This document shows positions 36,467 through 61,013 of a stretch of 64,000 nt of DNA, piece by piece (the stretch's first letter is position 1; each line of letters opens with the position of its first letter). Under the pieces are notes generated by a model, which made no database searches, was not told where the DNA came from, and was given only the letters and a program-made list of their open reading frames with translations. Location of the stretch: contig JAQQWL010000016.1 in the NCBI GenBank assembly GCA_038363925.1, positions 1,612,001-1,676,000 on the forward strand, read 5' to 3'. The position numbers and the translations under genes are program-made. The stretch is from Apiospora phragmitis (Eukaryota > Ascomycota > Sordariomycetes > Amphisphaeriales > Apiosporaceae).

Positions 36467-39180
36467 CTAGTGTGACGGCCACACACGTTGCCCAGGGGCC
36501 TTACACCTGACCGCCAGCCGCCACCAACCGACCGGCGCAACAGCCCCTAAAGGCAGACCAAACGCAATTGTGTAGACTATCTCTTTCTTTTCCTCTTCAT
36601 CTTTGCTATCTTCGTCAATAGAAGCACCTGTCATGGTTGAGGCTTTGTCCCAGCTCGTGTTGATGTTCGCCGTGACATCTAGGCGTACGATCAGATGTTT
36701 TCGAACGTATTCCACCCTCTTTTCCAAGTGCTTGCGAAGTTCCGCGGCTGTTATAAAGTCCTTACTGCAGTACGTACATATCTTCATGCACTGGGCGATC
36801 GTGAATTCGGCGTCCTGTGTTGATCAATCATTATAGATTTCCTGGTGTTCAGGACATCTACACGACTTATAAATCTTGCCCGAGGCTGTGCGTGGGTCCG
36901 TAACCATGGAGTGGGGCGGATGCTTCGACTTCTGGGGTATTGAATAGCAATGGATTGGACGTGTCGTTGGCCATGTTGTTCAGCCATGCGTTTTCTTCTT
37001 GCATGTCCGCTATCTCCATAGCCGCTTCCTCTAACTCGTCCATCGGGAATAAGTCCACCGGCGGTGGCACGTTGTCGTCTCCTGCCAGGGCAAGCGGGAG
37101 AGGGTCTACTGCAGACTCGATCTGTGGGTCGATCGTTAGGTTAAGCTGCCACTGGAAATCTTCTTATTGCGCCGCTGGCGTCTCCTATACGTCTGCATTT
37201 GATGAGGTGGGGGAGGGTTGTGGTCTTGTTTTCGGTACTATGGGTGGCGTGGTCGTTTCCAGTCTCTCAGTCGTTATTCGGGTGGCCCTTTCCTCTCCTC
37301 CTTTCCTCCTCCGTTCCTTCTTGTACCAACTGTCGTACAGATTCTCGTAGTGCATCTGTAATCTCGGTTTTATTATCGGGTAGAAGTAGTAATGTGTTCA
37401 GACCATTAGATACGGCAGAAGTAAAACACTCCTCTGGAGATAGAGCACATAGGTTGGTTGAAAATACACTCATCTCTTTCCTTCTAAAGCCTATCGCAGT
37501 TGCCTCGATGACAGTAGAACCAGTGAGTGTAACATCTTCTTTATGCGCTGTCTGCCATCGGCCACTCTTGAATTCTTTAAATAGAATCACAATTTGACCC
37601 TCGTTTAGCTTTCGCTTTCTCGTATAGCTCTGCTCTTGGGCTGGGTGGAACAGATCTTCTCGACCGGCCCTCTTCGTCTCCCGTGCTTTCTGGTTGTCTT
37701 GTTCCCTTGCTTCCCGGGCGTCTTGTTCCCTTATTTTGTCGTCTATATTCACCTCGTTGTGAACAAAGTTGAAAGACGCATTAGAATACGCCGATGTGAG
37801 ATTATCCAACTCATCGTTCCGAGGTATTGGCAGGGTTAAACTCTCCGGTAGTGGTCCTAAGAATGCGGTGATGACAGACTTGCGAACAAAAAAAGAAGTA
37901 ATTCTCAGCCCGGCGCTATCGGGTTGATAGAGAATATTTTGTACAAATAGCTGTGCGCGGTCTCTATCAAAGGATTCCATATCTGGGAATCCGTAGCGAT
38001 TACTAGGTTCGTCAAGCTCGTTCGAAACCAAAGCTGGAGTGGGAAGGTTAATGATCTGTGGAATAGCCTTGGTACACATGGTCGCAATTTCACCAGCAAA
38101 AGTGTCCAGGGATCCATCGGAATAAGTGTACTGCGCTGGTTTCCGTGCTTTTAGCAAGGCTTTACGTGCGATGAGTTCGTCGGGTGAGCGTGTTCGCAGC
38201 TCCTGGATCCTATCGGATCGGAATCCTAGCTCGTGAGCCGCCTCGGCTACTTCGAATAGAATTCTTTCGTCCGGCCCTTCGGGTCTGGGTTTTGACACCA
38301 GGTCTGCTTTCTCCTTCTTTGACGAACGCGCCAGTCGGTCGTAATGCCGCATAACTTTGAGCCAAAGCACGAAACGTGCTACGTTAAAGCGCTGTGTTTG
38401 TGGCAGTAGGATTGGGTAAAACTTATTTTCAGCTATCTCCAGTACGCTCATGCTCGTTGTTGACTCGTCTGTAGGGAAATTCCGACGTAGAACTTTGTCG
38501 ACGGTCAAATACGCTTTATCGCGTTTATCGAGACTTATAACTTGACACAAACTCTCTGCGCACGACTGAAGAAAACTTCGGTCTTTAAAAAGAGTTTTAA
38601 GCGATGGTATAAGGACATCGATGGTAAGTAGCCGATCCCAGGCTGCGTTACGTCCCTCGGACGATAGAAACCCAAAAATGGCCCCCGAATGAATTTGGGC
38701 TTGGAGAAGCTCACTATCGCTCTTGGAATACTTGGGACACTTTGACTCTACCGCCTGAACGGTTTCCGGGTCCAGCTGGGAAAGGCTGACTGGCCTTCCG
38801 CCTAGTATTTCCGTCCAAATGTCGCGAATGTGTCTTAGATAGGTAAGAATCTCCTATAATGTGCCGTTAACAGTCGCGGGACCTCTTTGGAAATTGCTAA
38901 ATATACAAACCTCGTCGCATCTCATGTCAATCAACTTATGTAGTGACCCTATCTTTAACCCAGCACGCAGCCCGGGGGACTCTATCACTTCATCGAACGC
39001 TCGCGCAAGATGCTCATGCTTCAGGAGCCTACGTACACATGCTTTGGCGTGTTCAGAAGAAAGAGGTTCGAGCAAAGGACGTAACAATTGAAGATCGCGG
39101 CGAGGGTAGTTGTTACGGATATCGTAGTATATCTCTGCGTTGGGATTAGCTTTCAACTCCCTTCTGGCCTTTCGAGGCAT
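36467..39180 (-). pseudogene. DUF3723 protein, 3' part decayed
   Basis: Exon 1 (39180-38911) starts MPRKARRELKANPNAEIYYD and includes LRPLLEPLSSEHAKACVRRL. An intron at 38854-38910 joins MRCDE to EILTYLRHIRDIWTEILGG. The long second exon contains the LGF motif typical of DUF3723 (AHELGFRSDRIQELRTRSP) and runs open to about 37290. There a frameshift moves the reading to a tail with TAG at 37185-37187, TAA at 37164-37166, TAA at 36867-36869 and TGA at 36824-36826. The tail has an acidic patch (MDELEEAAMEIADMQEE) and a C-terminal C2H2-like finger (CTYCSKDFITAAELRKHLEK). Several stops fit CAG or CAA to TAG or TAA. DUF3723 has no known biochemical function but is one of the recurrent cargo genes of Starship giant transposons. 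The family assignment is from memory of its motifs. Confidence 0.7.
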
Positions 39181-39475
39181 TTTGAATTATTTTCAGCAAT
39201 AAGAGAACCAAGTCGCACGTGCTCGTAACTAGATATATCCTTGGATAGCGAAGCCATTACTGGCCATGGGAAGCAAAATATGGCGGTCAAGCCGCGGAGA
39301 GCATACATACAGTACGGTATAACTTACAGTAACGTATTTGTAGAAGGGAAACGTGGCAGCTGAAAGTGGATTATACAAGGGCGTTTGATTTACTCCGAAG
39401 CAGGATTGGTACATACATATGTAAAGTGTACTGTAATATAGAGACAGCGGCTTTTGGTCCTGTCGACCAGGTGGT

Positions 39476-39482
39476 TATAAAT
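39476..39482 (+). promoter_or_regulatory. TATA box of the 39556 kinase-like gene
   Basis: TATAAAT lies about 75 nt before the ATG, after a GTGGT context, at a normal spacing for a short fungal leader. Confidence 0.45.
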
Positions 39483-39555
39483 TGGGTGTATATTTCTCCA
39501 GCTCAGGGGAGAGTGCAGTCCTTCGCCGATATCTTCTGCGAACGTCGCTCTCGCA

Positions 39556-40722
39556 ATGGACCACGAACAGAAACGTATTACACAAATTTTCATTGACGGC
39601 CTGGAGAATGCTCCCGAATCCCCAGTGCCAACGGGTCCTACATTTAGCAAGACTCCTGCGGAACGTATTGCAGATCTAGGTTCCGAGACACCAGGCAAAC
39701 TGCAAAAGCAAGCCATCTTCCGAAATAATGCTGCCGCTACCAATAAGTACGACTTCCCTCGAATAAGGATGTCTCGGAAAAAGGTAGGCGAATCGCTCAA
39801 ACTACGCATGGATTCCCCCTGGAACTTCTATACGAAGGTGCTTGATTTACTCGATCTGGGAGGCGATGTAGCAGTAGCAGTGGGGAAACGCCTACCGGCT
39901 ATTCGAGTCCATATACGCGAGTTTCCGAAGAAAGAATCTGAGAAGACCCTTCACTGGGTGCAAAGGCTCCGGCATAGTAACATTGTCGCCGCGCTAGAAG
40001 TCTTTCGAACTCCAGAAACCCTATTTATTGTATTCGAGGAGATGGATTTTACCTTGGAACATATAGCAAAAAGCGTCACCCGGCCGAGCGAAACTCAGTT
40101 AGCGGCTATTCTTGGACAGGTAACTCCCGCAGTTCTCAGTTAATCTCGAATAAAACTAATTATATATGAATATATAGATCTTAGACGGTCTTATCTATCT
40201 CCAGAACCAGGGATTTGAACATAGCTCGCTCGCTTACAAGAATATTCTTATCGATGCAGATGGAGAGGTCAAAATTGGCAAGTCTTACGTGCCCTACTTC
40301 AAAGATCCTGCTCTAACGGCCGTAGCGAACCAGCAATACTGCCAGAACGTAAGCTCCGGAGGGATAACGCGCGACATACGTATCCTTGGCGATATCACCA
40401 TGAGATTGATGCAGATATACGAAAATGAGCATCTCTCTATCGGAGTCGATACGGCTCAACGCTGGCCACGGCACCCCAACGCCATTGCGTTCCTTTCTCT
40501 TACAACTTCGGCTTCGTCTCTAGTGGAGTTATTGGAGGTAAGAAATTGCGCTCCACGTATACTACAGGTTTTGTCACTATAGCTTACCATACGAAGCATC
40601 CACTACTGGCAGAACAATGGAAGAGGTATCAGAGATGGGAAAAGGACTCATTAATGGGGCTTGTGCAGGTAGCGCGGGTTTGCGTTGGAAGATGCTACCG
40701 CTGCAAGTCAAATTCGGCTTAA
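39556..40722 (+). CDS. Kinase-like (probable pseudokinase) protein, three exons, 349 aa
   Basis: Exons 39556-40119, 40178-40537 and 40597-40722 sum to 350 codons. Introns have GTAACT...ATAG and GTAAGA...GAAG borders. Residues 1-110 are a lineage-specific head (MDHEQKRITQIFIDGLENAP, SRKKVGESLKLRMDSPWNFY). The kinase-like part follows: RLRHSNIVAALEVFRTPETL (alphaC region), LFIVFEEMDFTLEHIAKSV (hinge), ILDGLIYLQNQGFEHSSLAYKNILIDADG (catalytic-loop position, with EHSSL in place of HRDL) and GEVKIGKSYV where DFG is expected. Missing HRD and DFG aspartates make it a probable pseudokinase. The third exon ends ARVCVGRCYRCKSNSA. Two decayed relatives lie at 41981-43150 and 50992-52170. Copies 1 and 3 are followed by ferric-reductase sequence, so the pair was duplicated as a unit. 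Confidence 0.8.
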
Positions 40723-40929
40723 GCTTGCAAGATTCATACGTCGCCACTGTCCATGTCTTTGGCCTATTTATAGACATACCTTCTATTCGGACTTCCGCCA
40801 TTTGTAGGGAACTCGCGACCCTAGCGGCATGACTGAAAAGCAGTGGCTGACCAGTAAGCCCGAATGAGTGATTACACTAAAATGTGCGACTGTTGTGAAG
40901 GGCGCGCGTATACGTGATGAATAGCTGGA

Positions 40930-41038
40930 AGGGCCGGATATCTTTGCTTTGCAAGACTAATACCCGTCCTCCTTGGTATTGACCTTAGCTTCCTCGCGCA
41001 TCGCCTAGGTATTACACTGAAAGCATGCCACAAAGTGT
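40930..41038 (+). pseudogene. Fragment of an FRE-type ferric reductase
   Basis: About 105 bp match 52620-52727 of the complete ferric reductase: AGYLCFARLIPVLLGIDLSF and GITLKACHKV against the same segment there. Only this transmembrane piece remains. It is joined directly to a glucanase fragment in the opposite orientation, so it is a rearrangement product, not a gene. Confidence 0.85.
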
Positions 41039-41039
41039 T

Positions 41040-41430
41040 GTCCGCGGGTTCCCCTGCGGATGGCTCGACAATGGATAGTGACCCTTCCTCGGACGCTGTG
41101 ACGTGGAACTGAAGCTTTTTTCAATATCCATACACGGCCAGACTCAATCTCGGCTGGGATTAGCAGCTTAGTGACTGAAGCCCGGTTCGGGCTAAAAGTC
41201 AACACGAGTGTCGGGTCGACGTCAACGAGACTGGCTCCGTGAATTACAGGGCAATTCCAAGTACCCGCACTCGTCAGAAGCACAACAACCCCCATATTGT
41301 CCCGACTTGTGATATAAACAAAGGCATCGCTTCCGTTTAGGTTATTGACAATAGCAAGGCCCTCTGATAAGAGGAAAGTTGTAACGACGCTGGTGATAGA
41401 GAAAACTCGCAGTCCCAGAAGCATGACTAA
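41040..41430 (-). pseudogene. N-terminal fragment of a GH64 glucanase
   Basis: Minus-strand translation begins MLLGLRVFSITSVVTTFLLS and continues LAIVNNLNGSDAFVYITSRD and KLLIPAEIESGRVW. This matches the first 130 residues of the GH64 gene at 31226, with a shortened signal region and a frameshift after RVW. It stops where the ferric-reductase fragment begins. About 50 bp just upstream (41422-41475) are repeated at 40828-40878 (GTGGCTGACCAGTAA), so the fragment was caught up in a local duplication. Confidence 0.8.
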
Positions 41431-41980
41431 AAGTAGTGGCTGACCAGTAAACCTCGGTGAGGGATTACACACGCTTAGAAATGAAAATGTACTACTGTAT
41501 GTTTATGTATGTCTACGGGTGTGGCTAGGTTTTGTTAAATTACGCTTATGGCGGATCTATTCTTGGCTCCGTACACTCCTTCCAATAATGGTTTTGGATT
41601 AGAGCCAGTCCTGGACACATTATTCTATATGAACTCAACGAGCAGAAGGAGCCAGCAAATACATATACTTCACACAGTAGGAGAATATAGTAGTCCAATT
41701 GCAGCCGCTATTAGAGCCTGCAAATCATTCTGGTACTTGTATGGTTGTAGTGGTAATTACATATAGCGCCAGAAATGCATTATTTTAACAAGTACCCCAC
41801 AGAACACCTCTCGACGAATATGTTGTGCATACATAAAGTCAACCTGGATCTTACTATAAAATACCCGTCAGTTCTGCCCGAAAAGCGATATTAAATTTGC
41901 GTCTGTGTCCGTGTAGAAAACAGTACAGTACAGTACAATACCATCCTTCACTAGCCTCTCCTACAAACTTGTACCTGATA
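41431..41980. repeat. Duplicated upstream blocks shared with 44.9 kb and 50.7 kb
   Basis: 41575-41665 (GTTTTGGATTAGAG onwards) is repeated at about 44908-44990. 41690-41790 and 41830-41945 (containing CTGGATCTTACTATAAAAT and CCCGTCAGTTCTGCCCG) are repeated at about 50710-50940. The second pair is the promoter side of kinase copies 2 and 3; the ACTATAAAA is a likely TATA element shared by both. No gene. Confidence 0.75.
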
Positions 41981-43150
41981 ATGCATGACGGAGAAAACTG
42001 TGTCACAAAAGTCTCTATTAACGAGCTAGCGAACGCTTTCGAATCTTCAGTACCAACGGGTTCTATATCTACTAAGAATCTTGCCGAACATATTGCAGCT
42101 TATAGCCCAAACTCCAGACAACTTACGGAAGCAAGCCATCTTCCGAAATAATACTGCCGCTACTAATAAGTACGACTTCCCTCGAATAAGGATGTCTCGG
42201 AAAAAGGTAGGTGAATCGCTTAAACTACGCATGGATTCCCCCTGGAACTTCTATACGAAGCTGCTTGAATACTACGATCTAGGAGGCGATGTAGCTATAT
42301 TAATAAGAAACAGCCTACCGTTTATTCTAATTAATATACGCGAGTTTTTAACGAAAGAATCGGACAAAACCCTTTACTAAGTATAAAAACTCCGGCATAG
42401 CAATATTATCGCTACGCTAAAAGTCTTTCGAACTCTAAAAACCTTATTTATTATATTTAAAGTAATAAATATAACCTTAAAATATATAATTAAAAGCGTC
42501 GCTTAGCTAAGCGAAACATAATTAATAACTATTTTTAAATAGGTATCTCTTAATTTTCCGAATTACTCGCGAATAAAATTAATTATAACTTTATATAAAT
42601 ATATAGATCTTAAACGGTCTTATTTATTTCCGAGTTAAGAGGTTTAAATATAGCTCGTTTATTTCCGAGAATATTCTCATTAATCTAAATAGAGAGGTCA
42701 AAATAAGCAAGTCTTATATACCCTACTTTAAAGATCCTACTCTAACGGCCGTAGCGAACCAATAATACTGCTAAAACGTAACACCCGGAGGGATATACCG
42801 CGATATACATATCCTTAGCGACATTACTATAAGATTAATACAGAAATACGAGAATAAGAATAGCTCTATTAAAATCGATACTCCTCAATACTGGCCGCCG
42901 CACTCTAACGCCATTTCGTTCCTTTCACTTATATTGTCGGCTTCGTCTCTAGAGGAGTTATTAGAAGTAAGAGATTGCTCTTTATGTATAATACGCGTTA
43001 GGCCATCATAGCTTACCATACAAAGCATCCACTTCTAGCAGAACATTGGAAGAGGCATCAGAGATGGGAAAAGGAGTCGTTATAGGGCCCTGTGCAGGTA
43101 ACACAGGCTTCCGCTAGAAGATGCTATCGCTATAATCTAAATTGGGCTTA
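41981..43150 (+). pseudogene. RIP-decayed kinase-like copy 2
   Basis: It begins ATGCATGACGGAG and reads MHDGENCVTKVSINELANAF, then matches the 39556 gene closely around SRKKVGESLKLRMDSPWNFY (42190-42255). From about 42390 it becomes AT-rich with many stops while still aligning base by base. Most changes are C-to-T or G-to-A (for example CTTAGACGGTCT in the intact gene against CTTAAACGGTCT). The first intron border region and the DGLIYLQ, LTAVANQQYCQ and LSLTTSASSL regions are all traceable. It cannot be expressed. Confidence 0.85.
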
Positions 43151-43740
43151 AGATTGCGAGATGCATACGTCATTATTCTCTATCTTTTTCACCCAGTTTT
43201 ATTCATTCCTTTAGGCTTACGCCGATCGTATTAATTTTCCTCTCTTATAGGGTCTCAGGGCCACTATCTTATATAGTACAGCTACGTATGTATCTAGATA
43301 CTTTCATATCTCATTTCTCATGTTATTAGTTCGTAGTTTAAGGTTAAGATGAATTGTATCCAAAATGTAACTATAGTCACTGTGCTTACAGTAGAATCTT
43401 CGTGATAATACGGGTAGTATTAGCTTAGCGGTGCTGCCGACTGCGCACCGTACATATCAATCCTGTTGAGTAGAACAATGTCAGTTTGTTCACTTCGATT
43501 CCTATTAAAGGCTGGCCTAGTGGTAGAGTGTGGATTGCTCTTATAAGCCAGATGTTACTCAGGTTAAGACTTTAACACGCTTACGACTATAGACAAGGGG
43601 CAGCAGGCCAAAGTTTCTATGCTATATAGGAGCTGAATAAAATAGCTAAATCCCTTTTCGCTTAAATGTGATTTCCATGTCCCTAACGAAGGTCTTTAAG
43701 AGTCAAGGGTTCGGTTTAGGAATAATAACCGCGACTTTTT
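43151..43740. other. Intergenic region with decayed FRE upstream sequence
   Basis: 43180-43335 weakly resembles the 180 bp before the ferric reductase at 52355 (CTATCTTTTT, TCTCATTTC), so the duplicated unit once reached that far. A tRNA-like A-box (TGGCCTAGTGG) lies at 43513 but is not accompanied by a good B-box. No gene. Confidence 0.4.
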
Positions 43741-44905
43741 CTATAAAAGGACCAAAATTAACGTATAGAAAGGTATACGACTTTCCGTCTGTCTCGTGTC
43801 GGTGAATAAGGCGGCCATAGTGGCTTGTAGGACTATAGGGGTGATAACTTGTATTGCTAACAGCTGGTTAGGTTTCTCCGTTATCGATAAGCAAAGTGGT
43901 TCTAGTAAAGGCCGCACATAATCTAGGAACGATGAAGTGGCGAATATAGTTATCACCTTTACGGATCAGAAACGGACCGCTGTTGCAACCCCAGATATCG
44001 GCTGTACTCGGGTGGGCATAGCTATAGATGTCGCCGTCGCATGCCGTCGCAAACCATCTCGTTGGCATCCACCCTATATTTAATTAAGTCGACTCCTGAC
44101 TGTTTATCGATATATGTTGAATGGGCTTTCGTACGTACGTACAAGTGGGGTTCAATCGGTGCTGTATTTCTATATTCTGTTGTTCATGTCTATCTATTGT
44201 GCCAGCTGCGAGGGGTATCGCATACCCCTCTTCATGAGGCAGAAAAGGGGTTTGTGCGCGCAGGCACGTGGCACCCCTTTTGGAGTAGTATGGACAGCCT
44301 CAGTTCCTGCTGTTCCAACAATATATAAATCTTGAAAGGTATACTTTTTCCAACCCGGCTCGACGTAGTGTCGGTAATACCCCTCCATTGCCCCAGGATT
44401 CGCCGCCTTATACAAATTAGGAGAAAGAATACGAATCGGTTAACCATTCTCCGCCAAGGTACATAGTTAATCCCATAGTATGCTATCTAGTCTCTTCTGT
44501 ACGTTTAAAGCGTCACATATTGGTAGGAGCGTTATCCGGTATCCTTCCTGCCGTCTGAACTTAATTAGTTGTTACTAAGGTCGAGTACTAAGCTAAGTGC
44601 CAGGCCAATAAACTCTTTAAAGATATATTAGAATATAGTCCACTCTTACATTATTGCTAATACTAAGTTCGAAGAACCCTTAATTGGTCTTATTTGTGAG
44701 TTCTTGGGCGGACGGCTCGATAATGGATAGTGACCCGTCCTCGGACGCTGTGACGTGGAACTGAAGCTTGTTTCTCGACATCCACACACGGCCAGACTCA
44801 ATCCTGGCCGGGACTCTCAGCTCTGTGGTTAAAGTCCAGTTCGGGCCGAAAGCCAATAGAAGTATTGGGTCGATATTAACGAAGCTGGCTCCGTGAATTG
44901 CTACA
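43741..44905 (-). pseudogene. GH64 glucanase pseudogene interrupted by a solo LTR
   Basis: On the minus strand it starts inside the gene at IHGASFVNIDPILLLAFGPN and continues ESGRVWMSRNKLQFHVTASE, a TAA after LTNKTN, several further stops, then NLYKAANPGAMEGYYRHYVE and GWKKYTFQDLYI. There the 206-bp solo LTR (44115-44320) interrupts it. On the far side it resumes IDKQSGVDLIKYRVDANEMV, a frame change at a TGCGACGGCA duplication, DIYSYAHPSTADIWGCNSGP and LIVPRLCAAF-like sequence to about 43741. The signal peptide end is absent; a separate N-terminal piece lies at 41040-41430. Confidence 0.85.
44115..44320 (-). mobile_element. Solo LTR, copy B (206 bp)
   Basis: Ends are TGTTGAATGGGC and GTTCCAACA on the plus strand; the complement starts TGTTGGAACAGC. 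The flanking 5-bp direct repeats are ATATA (44110-44114 and 44321-44325). It is related to copy C (47387-47591), sharing GGTGCCACGTGCCTG and CTCATGAAGAGGGGTATGCG. It carries several differences, many C-to-T or G-to-A, so it is older. It sits inside the GH64 pseudogene. Confidence 0.88.
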
Positions 44906-45091
44906 ATAGTTTTGGATTAGAGCTAGTCCTGGATACATTATTCTACATGGACTTAACGACCAGAAGGAGCCAGTACATACATATAAATTATATATTCTAG
45001 CGCTAATAGATAGAGCCGTCTCTTATTATTCCTGCTTGAGATAACCTAGATAGACGTCCGCTTGAATTGGTGCATCACGATAACCAACTCT

Positions 45092-45466
45092 TTAATAAAT
45101 ATTGATGACCGAACTAAAACGCACACGGCGTGGATGCGGAAGCGCTGGGCGGGATGCTATCTCGGCATTGTGTTTTGCGACGGCTAGGTTTCGAAGCAGT
45201 TGTTCCTCTATTTCTTCCCTAGTAATGTCCGCCTTGTTTATCCTACTATATAGTGGTATGTATTGGTGGCAGTTATCATAACGTGGGCGAGATATAATAA
45301 CTCGAGATTCCTTTCTTCTCTTCCTGGGTAGGTACTCCTCTTTACCTCTAATATCTACCACGACATACCGAATCGAGCTGCGTTGATGGTGCGGGTACAT
45401 CCTATGAGTCCGGGGTTCCCGCGAGTGTTCTCGTTTGGGCCGGGGCGAGTTCTGATTTTTTGGCAT
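45092..45466 (-). CDS. Basic hypothetical protein (124 aa)
   Basis: From ATG 45466 (MPKNQNSPRPKREHSREPRT) the frame is intact. It is rich in Arg, Lys and His in the first two thirds (YLPRKRRKESRVIISRPRYD), then has a helical segment (ADITREEIEEQLLRNLAVAK) and a basic end (ALPHPRRVRFSSVI). An upstream Met at 45622 would add a less protein-like stretch. It may be nuclear or nucleic-acid binding by charge alone; no family is recognised. Confidence 0.5.
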   Translation of the reverse strand: MPKNQNSPRPKREHSREPRTHRMYPHHQRSSIRYVVVDIRGKEEYLPRKRRKESRVIISRPRYDNCHQYIPLYSRINKADITREEIEEQLLRNLAVAKHNAEIASRPALPHPRRVRFSSVINIY

Positions 45467-46162
45467 GGACTTATAATGGCTTCTTTCTACGTATTTCTTA
45501 TCTGTAGTAACTTTTGGTCTAAGCGCGATGAAACTTAAGAAGTTCCCTATCAATTTTGTGCTGGTCGGTGCTATGCTAAAAAATCTATAAGACACCTGCG
45601 AACCGACGGCCTTTACATACATATATCAACGATCAACGGAAGACCGCATGAATTGGCTATTTCGGCTACGCCATGAACGGCTCTGGAGGCCAATGTGAGC
45701 GGGAACGGGCCTGCAGGTGACAGAGGGCCATCTCTGGATGCTTGGCGAATCCTGTGGTGTACAGTGTCATCGAGCCACTGCTGACTTTAGCATGCCAAGT
45801 CACAGGGGTCGGAATGAGGTCGGCCAGCCGGGCCTGGAGCAAGGCCTATACTGGCAGCAGGTGCTGCAGAAAGCGAGTATGGTGCTGGACGGCTGGATTG
45901 GAGATCATGCTACAACATGATAATGGTGCTTTTGGGAGCATCCCAGTAGCTATGGAATATGTGTACACATTGCGGCACTACAAGCCTAATTAGCAAGACT
46001 TTCAGTTTTAATTCTCACTTAAATCTAACCACGGTATAGTTTAAACGGCCGGAAAAGGCCTTCGTTATGGTTATATAGATACACACACCCACACCCACAC
46101 CCGCACACATGTACACAGGCCCTGCTCATTAACAACGCAAGGGTCAAAATAAAAAAATAATT
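45467..46162. other. Intergenic region
   Basis: A CA-rich simple stretch (CACACCCACACCCACACCC) lies at about 46082-46100. Frames at 45717-45993 overlap each other and are unrecognised. Confidence 0.35.
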
Positions 46163-46681
46163 ATGGCATCTAGTCAGACCCCTCAAGAAACCCCACAACT
46201 AGTGCCATTCGGGGTTTTTAGTGCAGCCATGCACGAGTTCGCAGTTCACCTCTACAATGGCCAGGCCCAGGTCCAAAGGCTAGGCGCGGAGAATTTTCAG
46301 CTGCAAATCAAGGTGGCGGCGCTTTTGGAGCAAATCGGCGAGATGCAGGCATCTGCTGACCTCCAGGAGCAGGTGTCGAAAACCCAGGCCGATCTCATCA
46401 GTGCTCTCGAGAGTGAACAGCGCGGTTATAGTCCGCTTCTCCAATCACCTACAGTCTATCTGCCCCAACTACTATCGCCAATACTCGAGTCTAACCGGTC
46501 GACACCGGAGTGCAAGCCCCAGCCTACTGTGTGCGATGTGGCTGTGGGAGATGTGTCGGTCTTGCCCCAATATGGCGAGGAGCCGACCTGCCCGGAGACG
46601 GCGAAGCGGCCAGCAAACGATGACGCAACTGGGACGGCAAAACGAAGAGCCCTGGTGGAAAACTGGCCCTTACCTGGGTAG
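46163..46681 (+). CDS. Coiled-coil hypothetical protein (172 aa)
   Basis: Intact frame starting MASSQTPQETPQLVPFGVFS. Residues 25-95 form a leucine-rich coiled coil (AQVQRLGAENFQLQIKVAAL, LQEQVSKTQADLISALESE). The C-terminal half is Pro/Ser-rich and ends with a short basic stretch (GTAKRRALVENWPLPG), a possible nuclear signal. The layout resembles small accessory proteins of the region such as that at 63406, without evident homology. Function unknown. Confidence 0.55.
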   Translation: MASSQTPQETPQLVPFGVFSAAMHEFAVHLYNGQAQVQRLGAENFQLQIKVAALLEQIGEMQASADLQEQVSKTQADLISALESEQRGYSPLLQSPTVYLPQLLSPILESNRSTPECKPQPTVCDVAVGDVSVLPQYGEEPTCPETAKRPANDDATGTAKRRALVENWPLPG

Positions 46682-48276: not shown

Positions 48277-48316
48277 AAAAAGCAGTCATTATCATATTAT
48301 AGTACCAAACTATATT

Positions 48317-50350: not shown

Positions 50351-50991
50351 ATTTAATAAGCTACTCAGAAGGATACAGTACTAACTAGAAGACTTCAGGG
50401 GTAGTATGTCACTTTTCACCGCTTAGCACGCCTGTCTTGAATATCATAATATATACAGTAGGCTGTTCCGGACCGAGTTATAATAGTTGCGATTGCATTT
50501 TACATGTAATTATTCAAAACAAGCAGGGGGGCCAGTGAAGTCCAACTTCACACCCGACCAAGTTATGGACTTTGGGAGAGCTGTCGAGTATAGTACTGTA
50601 TCGCTTACGCCTTCTGAATGTTTCCACGCATGGGTGACTATAGTACCCTTGAGTACCATCCTCCGTCCTGGGCTGGCTCTGGCGGCAGGCGTTCAAAATA
50701 GGCGCCTCCCAGTCTAATTGCAGCCGCTTTTAGAGCCTGCAGCTCATTTGGGTACTTGTACGGTTGTAGTGGTAATTGCATGTAGCGCTAAAAATGCATT
50801 GTTTTCGCAGATGCGCAGGACACCTCTCGACGAATAGTTGTACATCCATGAAGTAAACCTGGATCTTACTATAAAATGCCCGTCAGTTCTGCCCGCCAGG
50901 CGGTATTAAATTCTGTGTCTGTGTCCCTGTAGAAAACAGTACAATAACTGCTATCCGTCACCAGCTTCCCTTACCCACTTGTTACTTGATA
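50351..50991. repeat. Duplicated promoter-side block of kinase copy 3
   Basis: 50710-50940 repeats 41690-41945 with scattered substitutions, including GGTTGTAGTGGTAATT and CTGGATCTTACTATAAAAT. 50351-50700 is unique and without a supported gene. Confidence 0.7.
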
Positions 50992-52170
50992 ATGGACGAC
51001 AGAAAAAACTGTGTTACAAAAGTCTCTACTGACGAGCTAGCGATCGCTTCCGAATTCCCAGCGTCAATGGATTCTATATCTACTATGAATATTGCTGAAC
51101 GTATTGCAGATCATAGTCCCGAGACTCTAGATAACCTGTAGAAGCAAGCCATCTTCCGAAATGATGCTGCCGCTGCTAATAAGTATAACCTCCCTCGAAT
51201 CAGGCTGTCCAGGGAAGAAAACAGGCGAATCGCTCAAACCACGCATGGAATCCCCATGGAGCTTCTATACGAGGGAGTTCGATTTTCTCGACCTGGGAGG
51301 CGATGTGGCCGTATTAGTAAGAAACAGCCTACCGGCTATTCGAGTTAATATACGCGAGTTTTTAACGAAAGAATCGGACAAGACCCTTTATAAGGTATAA
51401 AGGCTCCGGCATAGTAATATTATTACCGTTTTAGAAATCTTTTAAACTCTAGAAACCTTATTTATTATATTCGAAAAGATAAACGTAATTTTAAAACATA
51501 TTATTAAAAACGTCGCCTACTTAAACGAAATATAATTAATAATTATTTTTAAATAAATACCTCTTAGTTTTTAAATTTACCCGTAAATAAGTCGAATTAT
51601 AATATTATATAAATATATAAATTTTAGAGGGTCTCGTTTATTTCCGAGTCGAGGGGTTTAAATATAGGTCGTTTTCTTTTAAGGACATTTTCGTTAATTT
51701 AAACGGAGAGGTTAAAATTGGTAAGTCTTTCGCGCTCTGCTTCGAAGATCATGCTCTAACGGCCGTAGCGAACCAACAATACTGCCAGAACGTAACACCC
51801 GAAGGGATATGCCGCGACATACGTATCCTTAGCAACATTACCATGAGATTAATACAGAAATACGAGAATGAGGATAGCTCTATTAAAGTCGCGACTCCTC
51901 AATGCTAGCCGCCGCACTCTAACGCCATTTCGTTCCTTTCTCTTACATTATCGGCTTCGTCTCTAGTGGATTTATTAGAGGTAAGAGATTACTCTCTACG
52001 TACATTCTACGTCGTGCCACCATAACTTACTATACGAAGCATCCACTTCTGGCAGAACATTAGAAGAGGCATCAAGGGTGGGGAAAGGAGTCGTTAATGG
52101 GGCTTGTGCAGCTAGCGCAAGCTTGCGCTGGAAGATGCTACCGCTACAAGCCAAATTCGGCTTAACATTG
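50992..52170 (+). pseudogene. RIP-decayed kinase-like copy 3
   Basis: It starts ATGGACGACAG and reads MDDRKNCVTKVSTDELA. It aligns with the intact gene at 39556 through GESLKPRMESPWSFYTREFD and RNSLPAIRVNIREFLTKESDKTLYKV (51210-51400). From about 51400 to 51720 it is strongly AT-shifted with stops, then recovers (LTAVANQQYCQNVTPEGICR) to the third exon near 52160. The middle decay matches copy 2 in position but differs in detail. It lies immediately upstream of the complete ferric reductase. Confidence 0.85.
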
Positions 52171-52354
52171 CGATACTGTACCTATCTGCCACCTACTCTT
52201 CGTCTTTTTGGTCCAGACATGCATATCCGATTTAGGTTGGCGCCAGTTGTAGTGATTTTTGCTTCGAGGGTCTCTTTAAATATACTATGCTGCACGCTAC
52301 AGCCCAGTGACTATTGTCTGTCTCATTTCCAATGCTGTTATTTGGTACTTCAGA

Positions 52355-54153
52355 ATGGAGTATACTGAAATATACACCGTGTGTGTAGGTGGCTTATTTA
52401 CAGCGCTCCTGGTCTATCGGAACCTGTATCCATGGCTCGAGAAACTTTTGCAGAGAACGATGATATATGTGACCAAGTATTTAACATACCAGCATATCCT
52501 CCATCGTCATACCCTGGCTGGGCCATGGTCCGTAGGATCCGTGCTCACACAAAGCGCTTATGTGGCCCTGAACCTATTCTGCCTCAGCTATAGAGTCTCT
52601 TCGGTTCGAGAAAGCGCGATAAGGGCCGGATATCTTTGCTTGGCAAACCTAATGCCCGTCCTCCTTGGTCTTAACCTCAGCTTCCTCGCTGATCGCCTAG
52701 GTATTACGCTGAAAGCATGCCACAAGGTGCATTCCACGTTTGGCCTCGTATCGTTTGGTCATCTTCTCCTCCACGTCGTTGTTATTGTGGCTGAACGTGG
52801 TTCGTTCTCGTGGCATGTCACACAGGAACTCTTTGCCATGATAGTAAGCGAGGGGTCTCTGGCCTGGAATGTGCCGCACTAACACGTCCAGGGCACTCTG
52901 TCGTTGTCTCTCCTCGTCTGTCTCTCCATATCCCCCTTTCGGAGGCGCTTCTATGAAGTCTTCATCCGGACGCACCAGATCCTCGCTCTGGCCTTGGTTC
53001 TAGGCCTATGGCAACACCTCGGTTCATTTTCCGCATTTAGGTGGCTTTTAATATATATTTACTGTGGCGTCTTCTTCGGCCTCCATTTGCTCCAGGCGGG
53101 TCTTGTCTTGTATCGAAATGTTGTATGGGGCAAACCCTTACCTCGAGCCGTCATCACTCAGCACAACGGGGCCATCAGGATCCAGCTCCGTGTATCGCGC
53201 TCAGTCAAAGTCGATGCGGGGCAATACATCGGTCTTTGGATCCCAGCAGTCAGCCTCGGCTCCCTCTTCCAGGTGCATCCGTTCATGGTGACGTCGTGGG
53301 CCGAGATAGAGCAGGATAGCCTCGAGCTCTTTGTTCAGCCCCGCCGAGGTATCACTTCGAAGCTCCTCCGCGGTGCCACATTGGACGCCGGCGGAGCGTC
53401 AAGTCGCATAGCACTCTTCAGCGGCCCGCACGGTCAAGGTCTGCCTGTTTGGGACTTTGAGACCGTCCTGTTGGTCGCTACAGGCTTCGGCATTGCGGCC
53501 ATGCTTCCCTACCTTAGAAAGCTTATACGCGGCTACAACCTTTCCAAAGGCCGTACGCGTCGGATTCATCTGGTATGGCTAGTTTATAGCCTCGGTAGGT
53601 TTGCCGTCACGTCTGAATCCGTACGTACTGACAAGAAACAGAGCTCGTGTCGGCTGCGGGCGACCTACTTAACGATGCTCTATCCGACGACACACTCGGT
53701 GACGGCTATGTTAGTCCAAGTGCCGGCCATCCCTGGTTCTGGCTTGCTATACTAAAAAGACTGGCAGATTCTTTGCATATCGATCTATCATGCGAGCGGC
53801 TCACAAACGCAGGAGTACGGCAAACATGCGCGGGCGACTCTGCTGCCCGGGGTGCCACAATGGGAGGAAATTCTCCAAAGCGAGATTCAAGGGGATTTCT
53901 TAATGCCAGAAATCGAAAGGATCCTGCATGGCAAGGCGGACGACGACTTTTTTCGACGACTGCAGAAATTTGAACGCGAAAAGGGACGAGTACTGGTTAT
54001 AGGTAAGGAGCATGTAACGGTAGTAGCATGTGGTACTGACACCGGCCTCTAGTGTCTGCAAAGTGTGAGGTTCGGGACGAGCTCCGTTGCCTCGTGCGGC
54101 AATACATACTCGATCGAGTACAGCTGCAAGAGCTGGATTACCAGCCCGTATAG
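52355..54153 (+). CDS. FRE-type ferric reductase / NOX-like flavocytochrome, five exons, 531 aa
   Basis: Exons 52355-52843, 52892-53594, 53642-53709, 53768-54002 and 54053-54153 sum to 532 codons. The introns are 47-58 nt, with GTAAGC, GTAGGT, GTTAGT and GTAAGG donors and AG acceptors. The product has six or more TM helices with paired haem-ligand histidines (ACHKVHSTFGLVSFGHLLLH and FIRTHQILALALVLGLWQHL). An FAD-binding strand with HPFMVTSW follows, then the NADPH-binding parts SGPHGQGL and LLVATGFGIAAMLPYL. The C-terminal part holds GDGYILCISIYHASGS, a long helix (WEEILQSEIQGDFLMPEIER) and the end VQLQELDYQPV. It should move electrons from cytosolic NADPH through FAD and haem across a membrane, classically to reduce Fe3+ for uptake. 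FRE genes are recurrent Starship cargo. A 105-bp fragment of a second copy lies at 40930. Confidence 0.88.
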
Positions 54154-54778
54154 GGGGGAGGGGGTGGGGCGACTATGTCCCTAGCTATCGAGTGCAGAGC
54201 GTTCTGGTGTTATTATATTCTCCAGCGTATCAATGTAGGTAACAGGCACGTACTTCGGTACCTCGTCTAGAGTAATGAGCGGTCCTATGTACATGCAACG
54301 ATAAATCTCGCAAAAAAGTATGGCAAATCAAAGCGCATGGTATGTGTTGAGGGGCTCTTGTCGCTGCGCGAATAACGGTCCGTCTTCAAATCGGGTATGG
54401 CATGTAACTGATCTGTGTAGCTTAAGATCGAATAATACTGTAGTTCGGTTTGGGTTACTCGAAGCTTCCAACAATTTACTTAGGAGCGACCAAAAAAGGC
54501 TCGGGCAGAGAAGCCGAAATGGGCCGATTTGGGAGCCTGTCTAGACACGTGAAGTGGATTGTAACTAGCCAGCCAGCGCCGGCGAGTATGGATGGCGTGA
54601 AGCCAAACACGGCGTTTACTTGATAAATATCGGATGTTCAGTCCTTAGATATAGTACAGCATGTATATACATATATGTATTAACCAGCATGTGACGTTAT
54701 GATAAGTCAAGCCATCTAGGAGGAGGCCATAAGCTTTCGCCATACCCTAGAAACAGGCCTACCCTAACGACGGACCCG
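54154..54778. other. Intergenic region
   Basis: 3' flank of the ferric reductase and 5' flank of the cyclin gene. ATATACATATATGTAT at about 54664-54679 is an imperfect palindrome. No gene. Confidence 0.4.
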
Positions 54779-55498
54779 ATGCGCCGGCTTGCCAACAAAC
54801 GCGACAGAGAAGCCACGGGTGGCTCACGGGTAACCAAGAGACGAGCATGGGCGGCAGTGACCTTGGCTACCTCCCCATTGGCCCGACTCCGCCATATTAT
54901 GCCATCCACGAACCGATCCCAGTTTGAGACCGATGCTTCTCGGTTGAGAAAGCTCATCGCCCAACCGGTGTCCCCGGCGATGCTGTCTTATCTGGCCTAT
55001 CTCACCTACGATGCCGTGTCGAACACGGGGCAGCTCCTGAATGCATCCTCTTCACAGCTCTGTAGACCCCAACCAACAGCACTGCCCACCCTCTTTGGTT
55101 TCATCTCTCATTTGGTGGCGGTTTTCCGAGTGGCTGTTCCTACTCTTCTCTCCACCTCCATCTATCTCCGTCGCTTGAAGCCGAAATTGAAATGCGCCGT
55201 ACAAACTGTCGATAGCACTGTCCACCGTATCTTTTTGACTGCGCTTATCCTTATATCTAAATACTTGAACGACCGGTCATTTAAGAACAAGACATGGGCC
55301 AAATACACCCATATGGACCTAGGCGCCTCTACGTTTGGGCTCAGCTTAGCCGAGGTGAACCTCATGGAGTTCCAGTTTCTCTCCTTGCTAAATTGGAAGC
55401 TTCAAATCACCGAAGCGGACTTGTACGAAGCGCTGGGTCCCCTTCTACGACGCCGTTCGACGGACGATCGTGAGGTGACAGAGATGTCTTCCTTTTAG
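54779..55498 (+). CDS. Pho80/Pcl-type cyclin-like protein (239 aa)
   Basis: The C-terminal half has the cyclin-box pattern of the Pho80 family: SIYLRRLKPKLKCAVQTVDS, HRIFLTALILISKYLNDRSF, WAKYTHMDLGASTFGLSLAE and VNLMEFQFLSLLNWKLQITE. Such cyclins bind Pho85-type kinases and act in nutrient, cell-cycle or polarity control. The head (residues 1-60) is basic. A Ser-rich stretch at 85-110 with LFGFISHLVAVF separates the helices and may hide a small in-frame intron. The ORF is intact and ends in TDDREVTEMSSF. Nothing in the sequence shows which kinase it partners. Confidence 0.75.
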   Translation: MRRLANKRDREATGGSRVTKRRAWAAVTLATSPLARLRHIMPSTNRSQFETDASRLRKLIAQPVSPAMLSYLAYLTYDAVSNTGQLLNASSSQLCRPQPTALPTLFGFISHLVAVFRVAVPTLLSTSIYLRRLKPKLKCAVQTVDSTVHRIFLTALILISKYLNDRSFKNKTWAKYTHMDLGASTFGLSLAEVNLMEFQFLSLLNWKLQITEADLYEALGPLLRRRSTDDREVTEMSSF

Positions 55499-56036
55499 GA
55501 AATACTACATATCAGGTGAATTACCCGGGCCGGAGTTGGAAGTATGGCAGTATAGATAGAATACAAGCAAAATTCCTGATAATGAGTGTTCTAACGCAGG
55601 GTGGCTTAGCGGGCTCAGACAGATTGTGGTTGGATCAGACGAGGTGACTCAGCTGACTGAAACAGCGGCCTGGGTAACAATGCTCCAGTCATGGCTTGTG
55701 GTGATTATGAGTGTAGCCAGAACTAGTGTATATAGACAGACCCATGGCACCTAGGTAGCGTCTTTAGTCCTTGATCAATAAGTAACTCTAAACAATATGC
55801 TGTTACACCCCTCTGCGGTGACGGCAATGAGTATAGTGAAAGTATCATGCCACACTATATTTATGGGGACCAGATCCGTCTATTATGTACTATCTAGGTT
55901 TATCGAGGATTCTGTTTGGAATAGTAACAAGAGACAGCGAGTAGGAATAGAATGAACTCGGTAATTCGCCAGGCAATCTATGGACTGTGGTAGGAAGGAG
56001 CTATAGGCGAGAGTAGTAAATCTTCATAGCTGCCAT
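55499..56036. other. Intergenic region between convergent genes
   Basis: 3' ends of the cyclin (plus) and the HMG-box gene (minus) face each other here. No gene. Confidence 0.4.
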
Positions 56037-57024
56037 TTATTCCTTTGGCCCACTATCAGTTGGGTCATCAAGGACGAGAGCGGCTTGAGGCCCAGCACGA
56101 AGACGCCGCCGCTTCGCTGCTCCGTTTTTAGAGCCGCCAAACTTGTAATCAGGAAAGGCGACCAAGTGGTTTCTCTTTTCGATTTCCGCCCACTCTTTGA
56201 ACTGCACGCGCACAGCCGTGGATTCCACGAGCCAGAGCTCACCGCATATCGTAGAAAAATTGGGGCGCGGGTCCCTCTCGTGGGACGCGGCTCGGATCCG
56301 GTCTCGATTGGCCCTGCGCCATAACATAAAGGCGTTGAGGGGCTTCTTGACCTTGCCGCAGCTCGCAAACCGCGCTTGTTCCTGGTGCCGGACCTCCGGC
56401 GACCGGTGAATATAGGCTTCCACATCCATAAGTGGAATGTTTTCCCAATCTCCAGTCAGCTTCTTCCACGATTCCTCGAGTCCAGCCAAGTGGCCGGGGG
56501 CAAAATCTACCCTCCCTGGATTTAGCGACTGATCGATAGTCATCTCATACCATGCGTCGAAGCTGGAAGTATCATGTCTTGGACCCCCATCCGCCTCGGC
56601 GTTGAGGGATTCGTTGTTAAAAATTGTAGGTAAACCTTCGGTACCGTAGAAGTATGGGGTGTTCTACAGTGCATCAAGGTCAGACCTAGCTCGTGTGGGT
56701 TAGAAGGAGCTACTTACCAGGCCATTGCCCTGGTGTTTTACCTCCAATCCACTGGACTCTAGAGGCTGGGTGGGCCCATATGCATATGGCGGCTGCTGCC
56801 CTTGTCAGTCTCAAACTTGAACATGGAGGGACGGACTCTGGTACCGGCAACGTAATGTGCTCATTTAGATCAACCATGCCGGCGCAGAGGACCGGCGAAA
56901 GGTATGGAGTGGCCGGCAGCCGTTGGGACAGGAGTGTCATCGCGGGATCGCAATGGCACAGCAGGCCGTTGGCTCTCGGGATCCATTGGTCTTGATCCGC
57001 AAGGGGCTGTACCGCTTGATCCAT
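56037..57024 (-). CDS. HMG-box protein, two exons, 301 aa
   Basis: Exon 1 is 57024-56718 and exon 2 is 56635-56037. The intron at 56636-56717 (GTAAGT donor, GAAG acceptor) gives 302 codons in frame; an acceptor at 56664 looks better but breaks the frame. The HMG box is near the C-terminus: KVKKPLNAFMLWRRANRDRI, NFSTICGELWLVESTAVRVQ, FKEWAEIEKRNHLVAFPDYKF, followed by a basic nuclear signal (AAKRRRLRAG). This is the sequence-specific single-box class that includes fungal mating-type and STE11-like regulators; RPNFSTICGELW with EWAEIEKRNH resembles the MAT-type boxes. The first 200 residues are unrecognised. No second mating-type gene is adjacent, so a MAT role is not supported. It probably binds DNA and regulates transcription. 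Confidence 0.75.
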
Positions 57025-57759
57025 CGTTGGTAGGGCGACAGTTTACAGCATAACCCAGGCAAGAAAGCTGTAACGCTATGACCGTGCTTGCTGTTTACAC
57101 TCCGGAGCTCTTCTCTCATGCAGAGTTGCTATTTGTCTATTTCTAGCACAAAGAATCTGGACAGTCGATAAGTGGCTGAAGCAATAATATTCGTAGGTAA
57201 TTCCAATGCCGGAATGAGATGGATGTATCGCATGGGCAAGATATGCTGCACGACAAGACTCTTGTGGGGTTGTCAAAGAGGAGCCAGAACCCAAGGCAAG
57301 GCAGCGATTAGTGTACTTGGTGGAATGTACATATTGTACCCACACGCGTGTGGATTCCGCAATGCTACATAGGCCGTAGGTACACGAGTCAGACCCTTGA
57401 AAGTACTTACGTATACCTATAAAAGCTAGAAGTGGATGCAAAACTTGATTGCCAGGGATTGAATTTCCCCTGCGTAGAAGTATCGACTTGTATGTACGTA
57501 TGAGAGGACAGCGGAACCTATTATGGAAAGTCGGGTATATGACTGTAGTAGCTCTACTTATTTGGTGCACATCGTGAGGCTGTAAGTGGGTGTCAAAGCG
57601 GGATGAATTGGAGACAGGTCAGACGTGGGACTCAGGTAGATCTAATCTTCCCTACTCTGAAATCTAATCTAATCAATCTAATCTCTCTATCTGGGCTCGC
57701 GTATTACTCTAGTAAACAAGAAACGCGATAAAGCGTCTATAAGGAAGCACAGTAATCAG
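57025..57759. other. Intergenic region
   Basis: Promoter side of the HMG-box gene and 3' flank of the patatin gene. ATCTAATC is repeated near 57660-57682. No gene. Confidence 0.4.
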
Positions 57760-60700
57760 CTAATGTCGCCTCAATCGTTTCCGCCGGCCCGCCTCGTACG
57801 TTTCCGTATTTTTGCGTTTTCTGGGTTGATGATCGAGCGTTCCAAACCAAGCCTCGAGACACTGCTGGGAGAGAAGCCGCTGTAGCGTGAACGGGGAGCC
57901 GCTGATCTGGCACGTGGTACCCGGACCTTCTTCGAGCGCGATCGAAAATGGCTCTTCGCGGCTGCGTATCTGGAAGCGGACCTGTTTGAAAAAGTTTCCA
58001 TCGCGTCGCACCGAGGACCGGTCCTGGAAGGAACCCGGGAGCACCCGGCTGCGGAATCGGAACGCGGCAGACCCTCGGTCCAACTGGGACATCAGCGCCT
58101 CGAACTCGGGCGTCTTTGCCTTAAGCCGGCACTGGATGTGTCCCACGCACTCGTAGGTCCCATTGGCCCGTTGGAACGGTCGGGTATCGTCCAGTTCAAA
58201 AATAAACAGCTCAGCCCGCAATCGATAGACGAGCTTCTCCAATGCCGACGAGTTCCAAATCGTCTCGCGGGCCACCTTGCCAATCCTGTCCATCTCGGTC
58301 AGGTTGTCGAGCGCCGGTCCGCGCGCGCCAAAATCCACATCGAAACGGAAGTAGTTGCCCTTTTTCGCGCTGAGAAGCTGGCTCGTAGGCCGTTCGGAAC
58401 TTCCAAGCGCCAAGACGGCCCGCAGGATGCGCACGGGAAACGAATCTTTCCAGAAGCAGCGCGAACGGGACATCTCGGGCCTCTCTGCTTGGGTGGAGCC
58501 GGTCCCGAAGGACGCGACCAGGCTGGGTTCCGGTGTGGCCGGAAACAATGCGGCAACTTCGCGGGTGGCTATGGATACCGGGTTGTTATACGTTAGTCCG
58601 CCGTCCTGGAAACTACCGAGGCCTTCGATGTCCTGTGGTTTTAGATAACTGGAGGCACTCGATTAGCGGAAGGAAGGCGGGGTGATGCCGCTTCGGCCGC
58701 TACGACGGGTACTTACTATGGCGCAGCCGTGGCACACAGCAGGCTGGACTTCCTTAGCTTGATCGGTTGAGCATAGACAAAGGCGCTGGACTTACATCTT
58801 CCAGAGAGGGATCCGGCTCATTCCCATTTCCGGTTGGAGGACGTGATAATCTGTTCAGGCCACGCAGGTTAATAAGACTCTCCCCCCTTTTTTCCATACC
58901 TGTCCGTCGGACCGCCTAAGATGGACTTACCAGTGCTATCGTCGCGTTTGCCCACACCGTTGTAGTTGCTGAAGATACAGGTGCTGACGTCTTTGATCGT
59001 GGTTACCGGCACACCCACCATGGCGCCCATCTCGGTCGCCTTGGAGCAGTCGATTATGCTTCTCCCTGCACCGAAGACGCCCTGTAGGGCTGTTCTCAGG
59101 TTCCGGGTCGGGTATCGGCTATCGGCCACGAGCGAAAGCAGGAACTGGCACAGCGGAGACAGCCACGGGATCCAGAGGGACATTCGAGGTCGGAAGGCAA
59201 GGCGTGCTAACCTGTCGAAGGCGGCTATGCAGTCTTCGATGGGCCATTGGTTGACGCCAAGCGCAAAGGCGATGATGGCACCTGTATGAATCACTACTAT
59301 CAGCTTTCCCGACGCCGCTCGCCTTCCGTGGAGTGACGGGTATACCAGAGCTTGTGCCGTAGATTACGTCGAAGTTTCGTTGCACCGGATAGGGCAGCCC
59401 GACTCGGTCCTGCAGAGCCTGGATGGACTCGAGTGCGACTCTCCCCCTCGTGCCTCCTCCGTCAATGCTGAGTACGCGCACGCTCGCTGTGCTCGGCTTG
59501 ACCCGCACCGACAGATCAGCGGTATCGGCAAGGCAGAGAAAGCATTTGTTGACATGGAAAAGCCAGGGATCCGTCTCGCTCTTGGCCCCAAATATCTTGA
59601 CGCAGTTCTGGTCTACCGAATGCCCGCAGGGCAGGGCGAACTGCGGTCTCTGGCGGATGCACACGAAGCAGGTATCGTCCGAGGTCCAAGCCGAAAGCCT
59701 TCCGTGATGACGCCGCATTGTGTTTCGGTGAACCTCCATCGACGACCCAAGTCGACGGTACTCGCCAAAGTGAACAACCATCTCATCTTCCACCAAGTTA
59801 GCGAACGTAGAAGGGAGAAGCATACAGTCGGATCCTTCATCGGCCAAGACGAGACCCTTGCATACGCGATAACACGTTTCTCTATATAACGCGGCGAATG
59901 CGTGCCGGGGGCTGAAGGCTATCGAGATGGTCATTTGCTTTCGATCTCGGCTACAGACAGGGCAGAGAACTTACGATGCATTCCGGGAGGGTATTGATCG
60001 AGGATGAAGCTTGAGGCAATCAGGGGGACGCCAACCTCTTTCAGAGCCTTCAGGGAATGGAAATTCTTCAGGAACCGGGCTAGGTGTGCGTCCAGATCCG
60101 GCGCAACAGGGGTATGTGCGCGCGAGGTACGGACCAGGTCAAACGGTTCACGAGGCGCCTGCGTAATGTGCACTGCCGTGCTTTGGAGCATTTCTGCCAG
60201 ATGGAGGGCACTGAAGAGGCAGTCGGAAGCAAGCCTTCCTTGCCTCACACTTTCCGACAGATCCGACACAACACGGGACAGTTTGCTGAAGGACCGGGCC
60301 TTATACCCCTGCCTGCGCCGGGAGCTACTAGGCTCGGGGCCTACACGTACGATACGAATGCCCGCAAAGCGGTCTCTTATGTCTATACTGGTCTCTTGGC
60401 GTATCAAGTCTCTAAAAGCCGCCAGGTGGTCGTCTTCCGAACCCTCGGCAACGACCAACACTAGCCAGGGAGGAACGTGGATGGTGGAGGGCTGTCCCTT
60501 ATCTAGCCACGCCGCCAAGCGATGAGCGACTCTACGAGGGCCACCGACGTCGTCCGCAAAGAAGCAAACCACGTTGGCGAACGGGACGAGGAGCCGGTAA
60601 AATATGTGATCGATTACCTCTGTGGCCTTTTGTGGCTGGGGAAGACTTTGCAGAGAACGGACGATACTGTCATGGCAGTTCTGCGACTTCCAAAGCCTTG

Positions 60701-61013
60701 TGATCCGGTTGTGCATAGGAAGATCGGCGTCGGCGAAGAAGCTAGGTCTTCCGCTCCGATTGCCAGCCAGGGCGTGCAGGTGGATCTCTCCGTGCGCCCT
60801 TCTCCCGCCCCCGGGGAGCGCGCTTCCTATCCCTAGCCTCTCGAGGAATTGGAGCTTGGACTGGTTCCCGATCAGAACGACCAGATTCGGGAATTCCTCT
60901 TCTGGCTTGGCCAGGCTACCTAGGAGCAGCCGCGGGCGCGAGGAGATCTCCAGGACAGGTTCGTGGTCCTTGCGCAGGATGCTCAGCCAGCTCGTATGCT
61001 TGCAAGTCGACAT
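57760..61013 (-). CDS. RING-like plus patatin-like phospholipase (PLP), six exons, 980 aa
   Basis: Exons 61013-59975, 59918-59346, 59281-58931, 58850-58796, 58743-58717 and 58657-57760 sum to 981 codons; all introns have GT-AG borders (52-80 nt). Residues 1-345 are an N-terminal domain of unknown type, with alpha/beta segments (FPNLVVLIGNQSKLQFLERL, VVCFFADDVGGPRRVAHRLA, PPWLVLVVAEGSEDDHLAAF) that recall a P-loop-like fold without a clear Walker A. A RING-like zinc cluster follows (CFVCIRQRPQFALPCGHSVD, CVKIFG, CFLC). Then comes the patatin domain: oxyanion loop DGGGTRGR, nucleophile GTSSG split across an intron, and catalytic Asp in DGGLTYNNP. The C-terminal 250 residues are a beta-rich tail ending GRRKRLRRH. 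The enzyme should hydrolyse acyl esters of phospholipids. PLPs are recurrent Starship cargo and have been linked to fungal NLR-like immunity. All catalytic elements are intact. Confidence 0.88.

Follow-up and report, generated by a model that had tools for sequence, protein, structure and literature searches.

A probable derelict Starship in Apiospora phragmitis with a captain from a chromodomain-fused recombinase family

The window, a 64,000-bp stretch of the genome of Apiospora phragmitis (Sordariomycetes, Amphisphaeriales; 52.67 Mb in 19 contigs), is best read as the cargo of a derelict Starship whose captain lies just outside it, and this reading is considered probable. It corresponds to C16:1612001-1676000 on a contig of 1,829,565 bp (C followed by a number denotes a contig; positions without a contig are those of the window). 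The locus itself would add one more Starship to those described; its novelty lies in the captain. The family of this DUF3435 tyrosine recombinase joins a predicted Cre-like recombinase, a Cys/His-rich zinc-finger-like region and HP1-like chromodomains in one protein. The Starship cargo proposed by an earlier sequence-only reading of the window was partly supported, by this captain, by a mapped 5' edge and by three of the four accessory gene families named there, while the fourth, an NLR gene, was not recovered. Since neither a 3' edge nor direct repeats nor an empty site could be identified, captain, edge and window cargo can only be proposed to form one element of 80-134 kb.

The captain gene and its relatives

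The lack of a DUF3435 gene within several hundred kb would have counted against the sequence-only reading by its own terms. Such a gene, PG994_015121, was found 18.5 kb left of the window, directed at the cargo. Its DUF3435 domain scores 46.4 bits against a cut-off of 25.8, and its Chromo domain is likewise over cut-off. A genome search for DUF3435 returned at least 28 pieces; the piece at C16:1594852 taken alone stayed below cut-off. Starting at the ATG at C16:1593486, a splice search gave an unbroken frame to C16:1596915 via GT-AG introns, and the annotated protein agrees with this model at 95 % over 100 % of the length. The exon carrying the box-I arginine is absent from PG994_015121 and lies in another frame in the splice-search model. 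Because this exon is in frame in neither gene model, the captain copy is probably inactive. RIP indices of the captain segment are 0.82 and 1.18, values that are not RIP-like by usual thresholds. Pseudogenised captains of derelict elements have been described elsewhere (PMC11623301).

A search for relatives of the captain yielded 34 proteins, of which 14 have both Pfam domains listed and three Chromo alone. They include proteins of Apiospora, Monosporascus, Pseudogymnoascus, Gibberella/Fusarium, Fonsecaea and Neonectria, fungi of several classes. The catalytic residues R, K, HxxR and Y are conserved in the family. The recombinase fold comes from a fold model of middling confidence, and on its own Foldseek found nothing at E ≤ 0.001 (best 1.2e-3 to a chromodomain and 1.7e-3 to Cre). 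Fold alignments to Cre, XerA and lambda Int showed 6-13 % sequence identity. The family shares its predicted fold and its catalytic residues with these three enzymes at this low identity. To our knowledge, all three are phage or cellular enzymes without chromodomains. For the chromodomain the best PDB profile match is HP1alpha (9.5e-14). The columns of the aromatic cage, whose positions are presumed by analogy with HP1, contain W/Y in 24/24, W in 27/27 and F/Y in 15/15 of the rows with a residue among 34 rows, counts that skip gapped rows, which are more frequent in the last column. A fusion of captain and chromodomain was not found in the literature searched, which was covered in part (including parts of PMC11620798, PMC12289983 and PMC12153272). 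In Xylariales sp. PMI_506 a chromo-recombinase and a PLP relative are each located on a contig of 2,094,858 bp.

The 5' edge and dispersed captain copies

A genome search with C16:1592601-1596960 gave 26 rows including the query itself. Besides the locus, 12 places reach the 5' part of the query, and all of their matches start at query positions 375-399. The 13 aligned copies place the 5' edge at C16:1592988, with the captain start codon 498 bp inside; 313 bp outside, an MFS gene ends with the stop codon of its presumed last exon. Inside the edge the copies read TGTTAT[A/C]CC[A/T]CGTCAATCTGGACGCT, outside it the DNA is unrelated, and a C occupies position -1 in 8 of the 13. This edge provides a 25-base handle for finding more elements of the captain family without strain comparison. 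Outside the edge, 12 of the 13 copies have a GC content of 0.37-0.57 and one has 0.20, so that a preference for AT-rich RIP blocks, as in heterochromatin targeting, is unsupported. An excess of copies near contig ends was unconvincing as well (five of 13 within 250 kb, p 0.069; five within 300 kb, p 0.13; seven within 350 kb, p 0.026).

Pieces of captain-family protein were detected at nine of the 12 other places, each with in-frame stops, and at the remaining three there were none. The stops are mostly TAA and TAG, which suggests RIP. A fragment elsewhere, at C3:1247 kb, is free of stops over its 74 and 35 codons. At another captain copy, C3:968018-970321, an 82 % copy (C3:968325) of part of window 55869-57809, around the HMG-box gene, lies about 300 bp outside the 5' edge, which is regarded as an unexplained coincidence.

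Similarity between the captain copies ends at C16:1599.1-1599.6 kb, 6.1-6.6 kb past the edge, and the DNA beyond differs between copies. In seven short copies, read for 1.2 kb past the break, neither a common 3' end nor shared cargo was found, and deletion derivatives carrying both ends were rejected for want of such a common end; two of the seven run on into dispersed repeats of about 200 bp. These breaks and the missing shared cargo speak for the strongest alternative, in which the recombinase is a small stand-alone element of about 7-10 kb beside an unrelated accessory region and DUF3723, FRE and PLP arrived otherwise. A two-ended element of 7-9 kb was indeed suggested by two longer copies, at C16:1233 kb and C15:2657 kb, which stop together. 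However, a dispersed repeat starts at their common stop, where six other loci also begin, so that an insertion explains the stop better than an end does, and no small element with two ends emerged. Cargo beyond a captain copy on C11 and the genome-wide clustering of PLP, both described below, also argue against a small element, and this explanation is considered unlikely.

Genes inside the window

The features of the window and the captain gene are listed in Table 1. The DUF3723 gene, FRE ferric reductase and patatin-like phospholipase (PLP) named by the sequence-only reading at 36467-39180, 52355-54153 and 57760-61013, respectively, all proved to be real. In both the DUF3723 gene and the FRE gene, the stop separating two open frames lies inside an intron of the spliced model. 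The DUF3723 protein (37270-38853) is 96 % identical over 81 % to a metagenome protein, P0035, the nearest of at least five matches listed. The open frames of FRE and PLP seem disrupted; spliced models restore normal domain matches without any base change. For FRE, part of the spliced model reaches 48.1 bits for Ferric_reduct, 35.6 for FAD_binding_8 and 37.9 for NAD_binding_6. None of the PLP open frames scanned exceeded the Patatin cut-off of 27.7 bits (best 24.5), while part of the spliced model scores 63.2 bits over profile positions 1-190 of 191 and retains GTSSG and DGG..NNP. A Ras fragment is also present in the window.

Table 1 Features of the proposed element (window positions unless a contig is given)
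Feature	Position	Strand	Basis or remark
Captain gene PG994_015121 (DUF3435 tyrosine recombinase)	C16:1593486-1596915	+	splice search and annotation
Window share of proposed element	1..61152	+	5' edge outside window, 19.0 kb to the left
BCS1_N and AAA ATPase gene	4930..6583	+	matches to 4111-6825 recur beside other DUF3435/DUF3723/chromo-recombinase loci
Protein kinase domain gene	8102..8965	-	Pkinase 59.5 bits
PigL_N-domain gene	10684..12025	-	PF17111, 145.3 bits
ORF without Pfam match	27352..28233	+	open frame
GH64 beta-1,3-glucanase, two open frames	31145..32493	+	damaged copies also at about 41.0 and 44.7 kb
DDE_1 transposase, nested small transposon	35025..35897	+	domain match
DUF3723 gene	37267..39186	-	262.8 bits (longer open frame), cut-off 22; genome search agrees
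Protein kinase-like fragment	39481..40140	+	22.4 bits, under cut-off 31.7
FRE-type ferric reductase, spliced model	52135..54242	+	three domains over cut-off
Cyclin-domain gene	54695..55495	+	domain
HMG-box gene	56037..56663	-	domain
Patatin-like phospholipase (PLP), spliced model	57800..61152	-	5' limit uncertain

A STAND/NLR-type gene had been proposed at 10684. The gene there does encode a PigL_N domain, which we take to be the Helo_like_N of older Pfam versions, but NACHT and NB-ARC (the NOD domain) were absent from the two open frames scanned. The Fot1 element reported nearby corresponds to the DDE_1 transposase gene, which is presumably Fot1/pogo-like. Positions 27698-28217, within the ORF without Pfam match, have a 67 % DNA match at C11:640245-640769; a DUF3435 gene (C11:645-647 kb) lies about 5 kb away from it.

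Recurrence of the cargo families

The sequence-only reading had also held that these families would hardly occur together by chance. In this genome, PLP loci lie within 80 kb of DUF3435 or DUF3723 in 5 of 15 cases against 0.56 expected (p ~5e-5, 20,000 draws) and within 20 kb in 4 of 15 against 0.19 expected (reached in 0 of 20,000 draws). DUF3723 is near DUF3435 in two of five cases within 80 kb (p 0.009) and in none of five within 20 kb. These counts leave out the window locus and the weak DUF3723 row at C3:2658845, and the p-values are rough: the null is uniform and ignores the grouping of accessory DNA, lengths of 7 of the 19 contigs were estimated or pooled, and loci were merged by hand. 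FRE loci were near DUF3435 or DUF3723 in 0 of 13 cases, at 80 kb as well as at 20 kb, and FRE was rejected as a Starship marker in this genome. The presence of PLP with DUF3723 is therefore informative, and that of FRE is not. The BCS1 block is informative too. Outside the window, three of three such blocks had a DUF3435, DUF3723 or chromo-recombinase locus no more than 30 kb away (null 0.032 each); this count took only matches overlapping 4111-6825 and left out other matches of window 1-20000, for example C16:1819208, C5:671704 and C8:1809073.

Individual loci illustrate this recurrence. PLP relatives at C10:1160-1163 kb and C3:255-258 kb are each about 15 kb from a same-strand DUF3435 piece. 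On C5, DUF3435 (514 kb), PLP (458 kb), DUF3723 (453 kb) and a BCS1 block (423-427 kb) are all on the minus strand. At C11:182-186 kb an inverted BCS1 block lies past a captain copy that extends from 224 to 200 kb, and at C5:722-724 kb two oppositely oriented pieces of the block are situated about 4 kb from a DUF3435 gene. Further Starship candidates, where PLP, DUF3723 or a BCS1 block is close to a DUF3435 piece, are C10:1113-1175 kb, C3:243-273 kb, C5:423-514 kb and C5:722-730 kb. Among the best 120 of 186 PLP matches, the sole Apiospora protein is a 39 % paralogue in A. phragmitis itself, and the top matches are from Diplogelasinospora (58 %), Stachybotrys (55 %) and Xylariales sp. (54 %). 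No report joining Apiospora with Starships, or Starships with BCS1, was found in the literature covered, which was partial.

The orientations at these loci bear on a second alternative, that the region is a mosaic of at least two nested or abutting Starship relics, with window cargo from an older element whose own DUF3435 captain has been lost or lies farther off. PLP in the window is oriented opposite to the C10, C3 and C5 loci, the orientation of the BCS1 block varies among loci, and inverted duplications and nested repeats are present at 28-52 kb of the window. However, the 28 matches listed include no second DUF3435 piece to the right of the captain on C16, and a mosaic is judged distinctly improbable. 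That ordinary accessory DNA near a chromosome end brought the families together by chance would fit the repeat-rich setting about 154-237 kb from a contig end, but hardly deserves credit in view of a mapped element edge with the captain as first gene and of PLP clustering that exceeds the uniform null, though this null ignores shared accessory regions.

Extent of the element

The preferred reading, a single derelict Starship, leads to a size estimate. The PLP model begins at about C16:1673152 (window 61152), and a peptidase M16 gene is located at C16:1728-1730 kb. The peptidase M16 family usually belongs to the core genes in fungi. The 3' edge would therefore lie right of about C16:1673152 if PLP is cargo and left of about 1727.4 kb if the M16 gene is host DNA, and on these two premises the length given above is based. 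Searches of the right side found no convincing exact or near-exact direct or inverted repeat of the left edge, scans for inverted termini with shuffled controls gave no 3' edge, and no flanking direct repeats were convincing. Five 10-mer matches of one kind turned up in the flanks; CCCTTTATTT at C16:1727182, close to the M16 gene, was the best of them and was not relied on.

Proposed mechanism and comparison with known systems

The element would extend from C16:1592988 through BCS1, kinase, GH64, DUF3723, FRE and PLP and end at C16:1673-1727 kb. Its captain may have recognised the element ends, excised the element and inserted it by the chemistry of tyrosine recombinases, with the zinc-finger-like region adding DNA binding. 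The chromodomains could have tethered the captain complex to nucleosomes marked by methyl-lysine, biasing the landing site. The element would have arrived, or last moved, after RIP struck its relatives, and would no longer be mobile unaided. More generally, it is tentatively suggested that there is a conserved lineage of Starship captains with their own histone-mark reader, consisting of a Cre-like recombinase, a zinc-finger-like region and two chromodomains, so that landing would be chosen by chromatin as well as by sequence; the balance of probability lies against this idea. Target preferences are known for some captain families, but general landing patterns of Starships are unclear (PMC12134995). 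A recombinase fused to likely methyl-histone readers makes chromatin targeting of a transposon directly testable.

The locus resembles the Starship superfamily in that a DUF3435 recombinase, directed inward, is the first gene near the 5' edge and in that DUF3723, FRE and PLP are among the accessory genes. It differs in the C-terminal chromodomains of the captain family and in that an NLR was not recovered. In Sanctuary of Bipolaris sorokiniana about 350 bp separate the captain from the 5' edge, compared to 498 bp here; both Sanctuary and Frontier of Alternaria ventricosa have a chromodomain protein, and the authors of Frontier include this protein in a possible minimal transposition unit (PMC12506042, PMC11857905). 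The chromodomain is encoded by a separate gene at the other end in Sanctuary and Frontier, whereas it is fused to the captain here. If the suggested lineage is real, Sanctuary and Frontier would carry the same function in unfused form, in the chromodomain genes at their far ends. The integrase of Ty3/gypsy chromoviruses likewise is an integration enzyme with a C-terminal chromodomain, which may steer target choice (PMC10799480), but it is a DDE integrase and not a tyrosine recombinase.

Repeats in and around the window

A block of about 29 kb at C16:1512001-1541000 may represent a centromere or dead repeats: its GC content is 19-33 %, its RIP indices are strong and coding signal is absent. Within the window, a 2.7-kb repeat at 12502-15180 contains an open frame of 765 amino acids without Pfam match; its copy at C17:834239-836983 is 89-92 % alike, and there are weaker matches on C17, C3 and C6. 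Positions 44115-44321 and 47387-47592 are inverted copies of a dispersed repeat of about 206 bp, which occurs at more than 20 places, one of them directly behind the truncated captain copy at C11:6800 kb. Inverted 199-bp copies at 28542-28740 and 48317-48515, 99 % complementary, are 20 kb apart, and at C12:345 kb a truncated captain copy is followed by an 82 % copy of this repeat. A 21-bp tandem repeat forms two arrays at 32888-34051.
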